Assembly: GCF_001598215.1 (NCBI RefSeq)
Contig: NZ_BCXJ01000001.1
Span: forward strand, 868,001 to 932,000
Source: Shouchella clausii
GTDB lineage: Bacteria > Bacillota > Bacilli > Bacillales > Bacillaceae_D
Direction: 5' to 3'
Length of the DNA: 64,000 nt
The notes below the pieces were generated by a model, which saw nothing but the letters and a program-made list of their open reading frames with translations, did no database searches and had not been told where the DNA came from. Positions within the stretch are counted from its first letter, which is position 1; each line of letters begins with the position of its first letter. Below are positions 39,822 to 52,850 of this stretch, one piece after another. The translations under genes were made by a program, and so were the position numbers.

Positions 39822-40234
39822 AACATCAACTCCTTCATACAAGGTTCGGATCATAAGTTTGAAAATTTAGATACTTTAATTTAGTATATGAAAAAAATGA
39901 ATCATTGTGTGTGCAGGAAAGCAGTTGCAGCCACTAAAGAATGAGGAACGAGCTTATCCCATGCTAACAAACGGGCATTTGCTAGAATCGTTGTTCTTAT
40001 CTTTTATTATATGGATAAATTGTTGCAAACGCAAGAGATTTGTCTGGTTTTCTCTCACAATAACACACATTTATACATAATGTCGAAACAGCTCGTCTCT
40101 TTTACTGCCACTGGATGCAGATAGGCTACAGATTGAATCGTACTTCTTTTTCTAAATCGATGTTTAGGAAACTTTGCTTTTAAGTAAGAAGGAACACGGG
40201 GAGCGAAGCCAAACAGAAGGAAAACATAGAGGAC
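39822..40234. other. 413-base gap between hydrolase and tRNA gene
   Basis: AT-rich, stops in all frames, no recognisable gene. It should contain the hydrolase promoter (minus strand) near 39860-39900 and the 3' end of the tRNA transcript near 40200-40234. No inverted repeat with a T run stands out. Confidence 0.4.
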
Positions 40235-40307
40235 GCGCCTAGCAGGAATTGAACCTGCAACCCTCAGCTTAGGAGGCTGATGCTCTATCCGATTGAGCTA
40301 TAGGCGC
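40235..40307 (-). tRNA. tRNA-Arg (anticodon CCU)
   Basis: 73 bases fold into a full cloverleaf. Acceptor stem GCGCCTA/TAGGCGC; D arm GCTC...GAGC; anticodon stem TCAGC/GCTGA with loop CTCCTAA, giving anticodon CCU (reads AGG, Arg); T arm GCAGG-TTCAATT-CCTGC. CCA is not encoded. It stands alone; no integrase or attachment-site duplication is seen next to it. Confidence 0.97.
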
Positions 40308-50694: not shown

Positions 50695-51345
50695 ATGGGG
50701 GAACAGGAAAAAAATGAAACGGTTAAATTGACGGCTGACTGGGTGAGGGGCCAATTATTAACGGAATCAACGGGCCATGATTGGTACCATATTGAGCGCG
50801 TCACAGAAATGGCTAAAGGGATTGCCGCTGAAGAGGGCGCGGACATGTTTGTTGTGGAAATGGCCGCACTGCTTCATGATTTAGCAGATGACAAACTTGT
50901 GGCGAGTGAAGAGGAAGGCATACAGGAAATCAATAAATGGCTTGTAGAAAGGTCAGTGGGAAAAGCCGATTCAGCCCATATCATTGAAATCATTGAGACG
51001 ATTTCTTTTAGCAAAGGCAAATCGTTGCATACGTTAGAAGCAAAAGTCGTCCAAGATGCAGACCGCCTCGATGCGATTGGTGCAATTGGCATTGCCCGTA
51101 CGTTCCAATATGCAGGCGCAAAAGGACATGCCTTATATGACCCAAAGGCAAAAGTGCGGACAGAGATGACAAAAGCCGAATATCGGAGTGGACAAGGATC
51201 AGCTATTCACCATTTTTATGAGAAACTGCTATTGTTGAAAGACCGAATGAATACACATACAGGTAAGAAATTGGCTGAATCTCGCCACGCGTTTATGGAA
51301 CAGTTTTTAAAACGTTTCTATATAGAATGGGATGGAAATGGCTAA
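50695..51345 (+). CDS. HD-domain hydrolase (YpgQ/YedJ-like)
   Basis: A 216-residue HD phosphohydrolase. Metal ligands: His in GHDWYHIERV, HD in LLHDLADDK, and Asp in VVQDADRLDAIGAIG, the arrangement of YpgQ and YedJ. YpgQ of B. subtilis is a nucleotide pyrophosphatase with broad substrate range. GTGAGGAGG precedes ATG 50695. The hisS leader begins 61 bases after its stop without an evident terminator, so read-through into hisS is possible. Confidence 0.9.
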   Translation: MGEQEKNETVKLTADWVRGQLLTESTGHDWYHIERVTEMAKGIAAEEGADMFVVEMAALLHDLADDKLVASEEEGIQEINKWLVERSVGKADSAHIIEIIETISFSKGKSLHTLEAKVVQDADRLDAIGAIGIARTFQYAGAKGHALYDPKAKVRTEMTKAEYRSGQGSAIHHFYEKLLLLKDRMNTHTGKKLAESRHAFMEQFLKRFYIEWDGNG

Positions 51346-51406
51346 AGAAAGGCCTTTTCAGCAAAGTGTGTGTATGTTAATGTGTTTATACTAGGAGAGA
51401 TGCCGA

Positions 51407-51454
51407 ATGTTTTCCGCTATCGCCAAACAAAACAAACTACATCATATGTATTAG
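51407..51454 (+). CDS. Histidine leader peptide of hisS (15 aa)
   Basis: ATG 51407, 8 bases after GGAGA (51394-51398), encodes MFSAIAKQNKLHHMY and stops at TAG 51452-51454. Two adjacent His codons (CAT CAT, 51440-51445) lie three codons before the stop. The stop codon is the first base-paired part of a large hairpin, and a terminator follows before hisS. A leader ORF with tandem codons of the amino acid whose tRNA synthetase is encoded downstream is the hallmark of ribosome-mediated attenuation. No experimental support; the reading is direct. Confidence 0.65.
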   Translation: MFSAIAKQNKLHHMY

Positions 51455-51494
51455 CCTTGCTATTTGATTTTAAAAATCATACATAGGAAGGCTA
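51452..51494 (+). promoter_or_regulatory. Hairpin at leader-peptide stop, attenuator segment
   Basis: TAGCCTT (51452-51458) pairs with AAGGCTA (51488-51494), continued by CTAT/ATAG and GATTT/AAATC. A competing pairing exists between TATGTAT (about 51446-51452) and ATACATA (about 51479-51485). A ribosome stalled at the His codons would cover the left arm and change which structure forms. Confidence 0.55.
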
Positions 51495-51502
51495 TTTTGC
51501 AT

Positions 51503-51547
51503 AACCGCATGGATTCGTTTTAAAAGCTGGATCCCATGCGGTTTTTT
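51503..51547 (+). terminator. Leader terminator before hisS
   Basis: AACCGCATGG (51503-51512) pairs with CCATGCGGTT (51534-51543), extended by AT/AT with one bulged C, followed by TTTTTT. It lies 25 bases before the hisS start, between the leader ORF and hisS, so full expression requires readthrough. The T-box sequence (AGGGTGGTACCGCG) is absent. Confidence 0.85.
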
Positions 51548-51572
51548 GTTTTAAAAAAAGGAGGCAGATGGA

Positions 51573-52850
51573 ATGAAGAAATGGGATTATCAAAATGTAC
51601 GTGGCACACAGGATTATTTGCCTGAGGATGAAAGTGTTCGTGTTTGGCTGCGCAGAGTGTTGGAAGAAGTGTTTCAGCAGTATGGTTGCAAGCCAATGGA
51701 AACGCCAATGATTAATTACGCCGACTTGCTTGCCTCAAAATACGGCGGAGGGGCAGAAATCAAAAAAGAAATGTATACGTTGACAGATCGCGGCAAACGA
51801 GCCTTGGCGCTCCGCTATGATTTAACGATTCCGTTTGCAAAAGTTATGGCGATGAATCCGGAAATTCGCAAGCCGTTTAAACGCTATGAGATCGGCAAAG
51901 TGTTTCGCGATGGTCCGATTAAAGCAGGACGTTTCCGTGAGTTTACCCAATGCGATGTTGACGTAGCTGGTGTCGATTCTCCATTGGCAGAAGCAGAACT
52001 TTTAGAGATGGCAACTGAAGTGTTCCGGCGGATCGGGCTGAACATCCACATCCAATACAATAATCGCAAGCTGCTGACGGGGGTGTTGGATCTTTGCGGA
52101 GTCAGAAACGATCAGCACAGTGCTGTTATATTGGTACTCGACAAACGAGAAAAAATCGGTGATAAACAAGCATTGACCGAACTAAAGGAAATCGGCGTTG
52201 ACGGAAAAGCGATTAGCAAAATCGAACAATGGCTCAAGCAAACGAGCCAAAGTAGAAGTGTCGATTTTGCCAACAACCGTCCTACTACTCCGATAATGGC
52301 GGAAGGGATAGCGGAGCTACAAGAGTTAGAAGAAGCGCTTCGCTACTTAAACATTGATAACCAATGTACGTTTAATCCCTTTCTAGCTAGAGGCCTTGAA
52401 ATTTATACAGGCACTGTATATGAATTGTTTCTGACAGAGGGACCAATCCAATCAAGTGTTGGCAGCGGCGGCCGTTATGACCAAGCGATTAGCGGTTTAA
52501 TTGGCGAGGAACAGCCTATGCCGACAGTTGGGATCTCGTTTGGCATCGATGTCATTTATACAGCTTTAAAGATGGAGGGGCGAATCAACCAAAAGCGACT
52601 ACTCGATTACTACGTTATTCCATTGCAAAAACAAAAAGAAGCGCTTGCGGTCGCTTCTTCGTTGCGGAAACAAGGCTTTCGTGTAGACGTAGAGTTCAAA
52701 AACAAAAAACTTACTAAAGCGCTGGAAAGAGCAAACAAAGAAAGGGTTCCATTTGTGATTATTATTGGAGAAGAGGAAGTGGCTTCGGGCCGTTATAAGC
52801 TCAAAAACATGGAGACTGGCGCCGAACAAGATGTTCCCTTCTCTTTTTAA
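51573..52850 (+). CDS. hisS: Histidyl-tRNA synthetase, second (clostridial-type) form
   Basis: A 425-residue class II synthetase that charges tRNA-His. Motif 1 region RGTQDYLPED; motif 2 KRYEIGKVFRDGPIKAGRFR and EFTQCDVDVAG; histidine-binding LARGLEIYTGTVYE (usual form RGLDYYTG); GSGGRYDQAISGLIG as motif 3 region; C-terminal anticodon domain from YYVIPLQKQKEAL to VIIIGEEEVASG. The anticodon domain makes HisZ unlikely. The sequence type and the lack of an adjacent aspS suggest this is not the housekeeping copy but a paralogue. AAAAAAAGGAGG precedes ATG 51573. Expression is probably controlled by the His leader upstream. Confidence 0.92.
   Translation: MKKWDYQNVRGTQDYLPEDESVRVWLRRVLEEVFQQYGCKPMETPMINYADLLASKYGGGAEIKKEMYTLTDRGKRALALRYDLTIPFAKVMAMNPEIRKPFKRYEIGKVFRDGPIKAGRFREFTQCDVDVAGVDSPLAEAELLEMATEVFRRIGLNIHIQYNNRKLLTGVLDLCGVRNDQHSAVILVLDKREKIGDKQALTELKEIGVDGKAISKIEQWLKQTSQSRSVDFANNRPTTPIMAEGIAELQELEEALRYLNIDNQCTFNPFLARGLEIYTGTVYELFLTEGPIQSSVGSGGRYDQAISGLIGEEQPMPTVGISFGIDVIYTALKMEGRINQKRLLDYYVIPLQKQKEALAVASSLRKQGFRVDVEFKNKKLTKALERANKERVPFVIIIGEEEVASGRYKLKNMETGAEQDVPFSF

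Follow-up and report, generated by a model that had tools for sequence, protein, structure and literature searches.

The second histidyl-tRNA synthetase gene of Shouchella clausii, designated here as hisS*, is very likely preceded by a genuine leader-peptide attenuator that senses His. On comparison of the sequences, it is probably a ribosome-mediated transcription attenuator which would sense charged tRNA-His and would control the gene of a spare HisRS. It lies in a stretch of 64,000 nucleotides from this organism, referred to as the window. Three features emerge from the comparison of relatives: a leader ORF that is conserved and has codons for the amino acid of the synthetase downstream, a hairpin, P1, which starts at the stop codon of this ORF or close to it, and an intrinsic terminator. 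The class itself is not new because Naville and Gautheret reported in 2010 that in bacilli the hisS paralogue and hisZ have 5' UTRs containing short ORFs with consecutive His codons, and they took this to argue for a His leader peptide (PMC2965389), and the locus in the window fits that description. This analysis adds the anatomy of the leader, its distribution, a natural version with Gln codons, and an f50-family form that has a third helix; it also finds no detectable antiterminator in the form present in the window.

All the elements of the leader are on the + strand. The preliminary description had pointed out a 15-codon ORF with a ribosome binding site and two adjacent CAT codons and this was confirmed. 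The Shine-Dalgarno site AGGAGA is at 51393-51398, where relatives have GAGGTGA-like sites, and the ORF at 51407-51454, with its ATG at 51407 and its TAG at 51452-51454, encodes MFSAIAKQNKLHHMY and is conserved in relatives in its frame and its His codons. The CAT CAT pair at 51440-51445, the putative regulatory codons, is indeed made of adjacent His codons, and its position just before the stop is to be understood as two codons, ATG and TAT, standing between it and TAG. The stop codon does open a long hairpin, as described: P1 is 43 nt in length (51452-51494; UAGCCUUGCUAU/AUAGGAAGGCUA), its 5' arm (segment B) begins with TAG, its 3' arm (segment C) is at 51483-51494, and it is supported by folding, z-scores, permutations, and double changes. 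Directly 3' of P1 is CTATTT (51492-51497), which resembles the NusG pause motif TTNTTT and is a candidate pause site. The intrinsic terminator that had been noticed between the leader and the synthetase gene consists of arms E and F plus a T run at 51503-51547 (hairpin about 51503-51543); its folding energy is -20.0 kcal/mol and it is likewise supported by z-scores and permutations. The Shine-Dalgarno site of hisS* is at 51560-51564 and the gene itself, of 425 codons, is at 51573-52850. Its product belongs to NCBIfam NF009085 (PRK12420), scoring 657.9 bits with the PRK12420 model (cut-off 540) and 386.3 with TIGR00442 (cut-off 286.75), and S. tritolerans (L024) encodes a protein that is 99% identical to it. 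Thus the gene is paralogous, as had been stated, with another hisS elsewhere in the genome. That it is of clostridial type could not be established, only four of 299 genomes in a phylum sample having a match outside the class. Upstream of the leader is an HD-domain gene that ends at 51345.

When the 201-nt leader region was folded, its energy was -54.9 compared to a shuffle mean of -39.15 (z -3.34). In the fold of 51445-51503, P1 is lengthened because the final codons of the leader pair with the bases immediately before the terminator (TATGTA/TGCATA). A simple consensus scan of 51200-51620 gave no terminator-like and no promoter-like sites, and we attribute the failure to pick up the terminator to its bulge. 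As a check on chance, we counted ORFs of 9-30 codons that have a Shine-Dalgarno-like site and neighbouring His codons within the final six; there is one in the window compared to a mean of 0.175 in 40 shuffles, of which seven had such an ORF. This count alone is only suggestive and it is conservation that decides. At the Rfam gathering score the only match in the window was a tRNA gene at 40234-40307 on the - strand, and eight weak scores up to E 5, including a trpB motif (E 1) and Phe_leader (E 4.4), were obtained far below the gathering score in 51200-51620. The His_leader family RF00514 gave no match at gathering in the window and none up to E 5 in 51200-51620. The preliminary description had also seen no T-box here, and the RF00230 covariance model gave no match at the hisS* leader, whereas the other hisS of this genome, which adjoins an apparent aspS (named by eye), has a T-box just upstream.

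When 149 relatives were searched for hisS* at a threshold of E <= 1e-80, 26 had a match and in 25 of them the gene was complete. All 25 complete genes were preceded by a leader with HH or HHH, P1, and a terminator, and the 26th match (L051) was a gene fragment that had no leader. A covariance model, R1, whose input was 26 leaders, all of them with His codons, was then used to search 397 genomes of the order, and it gave matches at E <= 0.01 in 69 of them. The strong matches (E <= 1.7e-8) were 64 in 63 genomes, 18 of which had contributed to R1. In 60 of these 64, hisS* was downstream, the match lying 122-497 nt past the leader stop with 52-100% identity. All 60 leaders had a Shine-Dalgarno-like site, a short ORF, and adjacent His codons, with HHH or longer in 57, and 42 of the 60 came from genomes outside the training set of R1; considering only such genomes, 42 of 46 strong matches precede hisS*. 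Leaders that keep the hairpins and lose the His codons, the frame, or the terminator had been named beforehand as evidence against an attenuator; all of these features were conserved in 60 of the 60 strong hisS* leaders and before 25 of the 25 complete hisS* genes. The remaining four strong matches were two leaders with Gln codons (L108 and L112), a His leader without hisS* (L078), and a leader before a decayed hisS* (L107). L078, in genome G088, has an intact-looking His leader, P1, and terminator in front of a HAD-like hydrolase gene (by eye) and no hisS* in the stretch read, and it may be labelled a putative orphan attenuator. In L107 (G184; about 270-560 of its stretch) a leader ending in HHHIK is kept before the decayed hisS* frame and P1 is partly decayed too. 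One genome, G414, has two copies of the leader (L057 and L084), each followed by a hisS* match that starts about 490 nt past the stop, at residue 46-48. Among the 13 weak R1 matches, six were opposite-strand shadows of strong ones, one more was in G105, and L114-L119 were read. Of these six, L114 proved to be a His leader upstream of hisS* whose hairpin differs, and no such leader was seen in the other five.

Outside the order, a second model, R2, was used, which covers the part of the leaders after the stop and had the Gln leaders L108 and L112 among its input sequences. At E <= 0.01 it gave matches in seven of 398 genomes of the class. Three of these matches (L136, L138, and L139) were leaders before hisS*, with peptides ending in HHHIH, HHHHH, and HVHQHTE, and L140, L141, and L142 were not leader-like. 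Among the strong matches of R2 in the 397 genomes of the order and the 398 of the class there was no third class of codons. In the phylum sample of 299 genomes, hisS* was found in six besides that of the window; leaders were seen in L210 and L213 with HHH and in L211 with HYYH, and in L207, L208, L209, and L212 no leader was seen within 450 nt. L213 and L209 are neighbouring hisS*-like copies in one genome (G931), with a His leader (HLHHHT) before one and none seen before the other. In the Paraliobacillus stretch L026, Rfam gave a c-di-GMP-I riboswitch match (67.1 bits) at 321-404 on the other strand.

The strongest test of the attenuator reading comes from the two Gln leaders. L108 and L112, which encode MMNARLQLQQQN and MKNAHTYMTIQQQQ, precede an RlmI-like methyltransferase gene and a GlnRS gene, and both were picked up by the His-only model R1 (80.9 and 57.6 bits). 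In the family to which they belong, GlnRS is encoded in 35 of 35 genomes, and upstream DNA was compared for 34 of 36 GlnRS matches, G422 and G429 not being among them. The leader scaffold was present before the methyltransferase-glnS operon in eight of the 34: seven were found by R2 (E <= 7.6e-4), with L108 and L112 having been part of its input, and L177 was found by eye. These loci are L133 (G240), L134 (G263), L173-L177, and L204. All eight leaders have Gln codons (QQQN, QQQQ, QQQQI, QQQK, QQQHK..., QFQLQR, and, in two genomes, QFQRQS...), which are consecutive in five and at every second codon in three. In two of the eight, the identity of the GlnRS was confirmed with TIGR00440 (725 and 730 bits; cut-off 425.8). 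In L173, L204, and L177 the stop codon comes several codons later, inside P1, and L177 also has a weak Shine-Dalgarno site. Upstream of the remaining 26 GlnRS matches neither the ORF scan nor R2 found such a leader, the nearest cases being an ORF ending in IIQQ without a terminator (L189) and an R2 match at E 0.14 (L179); in L191, L193, L194, and L196 the methyltransferase gene is present and the scaffold is absent. Thus, as far as sequence comparison can show it, the identity of the leader codons tracks the amino acid of the downstream synthetase, which supports the leader-peptide attenuation proposed in the preliminary description. No report of a Gln leader before glnS in Bacilli was found in the openly licensed literature searched, which is no proof of its absence; a glnS leader has been predicted in Shewanella (PMC2659441).

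For the structural comparison 80 leaders were compiled; 77 remained once L114 was skipped and L105 and L129, which lacked an anchor, were dropped, and 76 after the removal of L107, with its decayed hisS*. L051 and second copies of a genome (L024, L028, L034, L036, and L082 or its window equivalent) had been excluded earlier. In 22 cluster representatives and the window, the mean z was -5.1 for P1 and -6.1 for the terminator, compared to 0.14 for the stretch when the 5' arm of P1 was masked and -0.09 for D..E. For each of these two helices, none of 20000 permutations of the pairing was as good, and RNAalifold found double changes in nine of 21 pairs. When 36 segment pairs were subjected to swap tests in the 22 representatives, only B:C, the apical part of B with C, and E:F stood out. 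Thus, P1 and the terminator are the only helices that are supported and that coevolve in the window's type. The sequence of P1 is conserved beyond its pairing, including a mismatched G.G and GGAAG, and its first paired base is 12-15 nt after the first His or Gln codon in 64 of the 76 leaders; in the remaining 12 the spacing is 7-11 nt. Even when the stop comes just before the TAG that opens P1 (L047, L065, and L123) or inside P1 (L129, by eye), the distance from the first His codon to the beginning of P1 remains about 13-15 nt. After P1, CTATTT is present in 43 of the 76 leaders, TTATTT, which fits TTNTTT exactly, in 11, and other forms in 22.

The preliminary description had seen no perfect antiterminator, and this held in the swap, covariation, and RNAalifold tests. 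The swap tests in the 22 representatives gave p values of 0.74 for D:E, 0.99 for C:E, 0.59 for C:D, and 0.88 for A:B, and the lesser values for A with the post-terminator segment (0.012), apical B with F (0.026), and U with the post-terminator segment (0.044) are about what chance would give in 36 tests. RNAalifold showed no antiterminator in C..E of the window's type. With a tree-simulated null the only pair with significant covariation (E 0.025) was in the terminator and the next, which are compatible with P1 or the terminator, were at E 0.68 and 0.75, so that the power of this test is low even for known helices. When the C:E duplex was compared with shuffled partners in 25 of 26 rows, the z values were between -2.5 and +1.2, overall no better than the shuffles, with four rows at -2.2 to -2.5. 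In ribosome-masked partition functions the terminator wins at equilibrium under every mask; prior to synthesis of the 3' arm of the terminator, C:E and C:D pairing is seen if the ribosome is placed at the stop or on the third codon. D:E and C:D antiterminators had looked good by eye in single sequences and failed over the leader set, and a second ORF from an ATG after P1 was dropped because this ATG is not conserved. In the window's type, an antiterminator was not detected, although a weak or kinetic one may exist.

In the family f50, hisS* was matched in 42 of 148 genomes, and the 30 matches with a locus (L210 and L214-L242) were compared, anchored by a pattern around the stop codon that is present in all 30. 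The stop codon is inside the P1 5' arm in every one of these leaders, and adjacent His codons are present in 22, the other eight having Tyr or Arg within the run (HYYH, FYYH, HYY, HYHY, HRH, and HYF). The first paired base of P1 is 14 nt after the first His codon in 23 of the 30. In this family the mean z is -6.0 for P1, -5.6 for C:D, and -5.9 for the terminator, and C:D coevolves, as in L236 and L240, with none of 5000 permutations being as good. The complementarity of D and E (mean -12.3 kcal/mol) does not exceed that of shuffles (z -0.5), and the two do not coevolve (p 0.14). A ribosome covers 13-14 nt ahead of the codon in its A site, and this footprint was assumed in the ribosome-masked folding. 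With the ribosome on the first His codon and before the last terminator arm is made, the means were 9.7 B:C, 5.4 C:D, and 7.2 D:E pairs, whereas with the ribosome at the stop they were 0, 12.6, and 4.3, respectively. In the full-length RNA there were 7.2 E:F and 2.8 D:E pairs with the ribosome on the first His codon, compared to 10.5 and 0.3 with the ribosome at the stop. When the mask was moved to the second or third His codon, the result was already like that for the stop. This trend in the model agrees with the switching logic of the his leader in E. coli, as a shift and not as a clean switch.

How then might the leader work? A probable course of events is that when charged tRNA-His is short the ribosome would stall on the first His codon with its front edge just before P1, and P1, left largely free, would form and RNA polymerase would read through the terminator. 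If there is plenty of His, the ribosome would go on to the stop and cover the 5' arm of P1, and the terminator would act. That P1 marks the read-through state is what we infer from its spacing from the first His codon and from the f50 relative as a guide. In f50, B:C together with D:E would be set against C:D together with E:F; in the window's type, the step connecting P1 with the terminator may be weak, replaced, or yet to be found. One candidate for this step, possible though not probable, is that P1 and YTATTT make up a hairpin-stabilized NusG-type pause, or some other element acting on the polymerase, so that the position of the ribosome sets the action of P1 and hence the terminator. It would agree with the lack of a detectable antiterminator in the window's type, with the conservation of G.G and GGAAG in P1, and with CTATTT or TTATTT following P1 in 54 of the 76 leaders. 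In NusG pauses, TTNTTT occupies -11 to -6 and a hairpin stands 11-12 nt back from the RNA end (PMC12288461), and in B. subtilis vmlR and tlrB such pauses are joined with leader ORFs (PMC12288461, PMC9226507). However, exact TTNTTT is present in just 11 of the 76, a pause before the terminator gives no account of how termination would be decided, and the f50 relatives have the C:D helix instead. A pause at YTATTT might also solve the problem that RNA polymerase outruns ribosomes in B. subtilis (PMC9226507). The wider claim, that one scaffold is retargeted between His and Gln by codon exchange and that the window's type acts without an antiterminator, through an effect of P1 on RNA polymerase set by the ribosome position, in bacteria whose transcription is believed to run ahead of translation, is put forward only tentatively and we consider it rather doubtful.

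Early C:E and C:D pairing, as seen when the third codon or the stop was masked, would be expected if the switch worked in reverse, as it does in vmlR (PMC9226507), with P1 as an anti-antiterminator whose base is covered by a ribosome on the last His codons so that C pairs with the 5' arm of the terminator and the terminator is read through. This is unlikely, because C:E was no better than shuffled or swapped partners, P1 is largely free with the ribosome on the first His codon, and P1 would be covered to a greater extent by a ribosome that has reached the stop than by one that is stalled. The peptide itself is conserved in part: Q[LF]HH occurs in 49 of the 60 leaders that are of the window's type, and in 26 of the 30 f50 leaders the run of His or Tyr follows QL or QF, which could mean that the QLHHH end is an arrest sequence responding to a ligand or drug and that charging with His is secondary. 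Paralogues of aminoacyl-tRNA synthetases can be resistance genes. Nevertheless, the His run is replaced by Gln codons before glnS, and the leader in the window ends in NKLHHMY and not QLHH, so that arrest by the peptide is very improbable. Lastly, since the HD-domain gene adjoins the leader, the hairpins could be its plain terminator together with a protein-binding element and the ORF incidental, but the frame, the Shine-Dalgarno site, and the His codons are kept across many genera and the codons change together with the synthetase, and we give this hardly any credence. Sensing of charged tRNA-His by a ribosome in the leader is the reading we prefer.

The His leader described in PMC2965389 is like the one in the window in having a His-run ORF and a predicted terminator before a Bacillus hisS paralogue, but, unlike the present analysis, the section on that leader gives no structure or antiterminator, and glnS, clausii, and Paenibacillus are absent from the main text. 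According to the same source, amino-acid-sensing leader peptides were known in 2010 only from Proteobacteria and Actinobacteria; a Leu-rich attenuator peptide has been described in S. aureus (PMC5794164). The his leader of E. coli and Salmonella (RF00514) shares the His codons, the stop by the first switching arm, and the terminator (PMC9413887), and the f50 RNA has the stretches for its A-F logic, whereas the window's leader has no match to that Rfam family, no detectable antiterminator, and a synthetase paralogue as its target. His leader attenuators, also with a His-rich peptide and a terminator, precede the his operons of the B. cereus group, Peptostreptococcaceae, and Erysipelotrichales among the Firmicutes (PMC9413887), but those are biosynthetic operons and not a synthetase gene, and hisS is absent from the main text of that paper. 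In the B. subtilis vmlR, tlrB, and bmrBCD leaders, stalling of the ribosome in a leader ORF also controls a terminator (PMC9226507, PMC12288461, PMC4191407), with NusG pausing reported for vmlR and tlrB of the three (PMC9226507, PMC12288461), but they respond to ribosome-targeting antibiotics and not to one amino acid. The His leaders in many Bacilli, the f50 relative, and the exchange of His for Gln provide natural variants for studying ribosome-controlled attenuation in cells of the kind where polymerase is reported to outrun the ribosome. The arrangement also suggests that the hisS paralogue is a spare enzyme induced by starvation. The T-box of the other hisS, like the leader of hisS*, would sense tRNA charging to control a HisRS; a T-box binds tRNA directly and needs no ORF. 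In the same genome there is also a hisZ-like gene before an apparent hisG, both named by eye.
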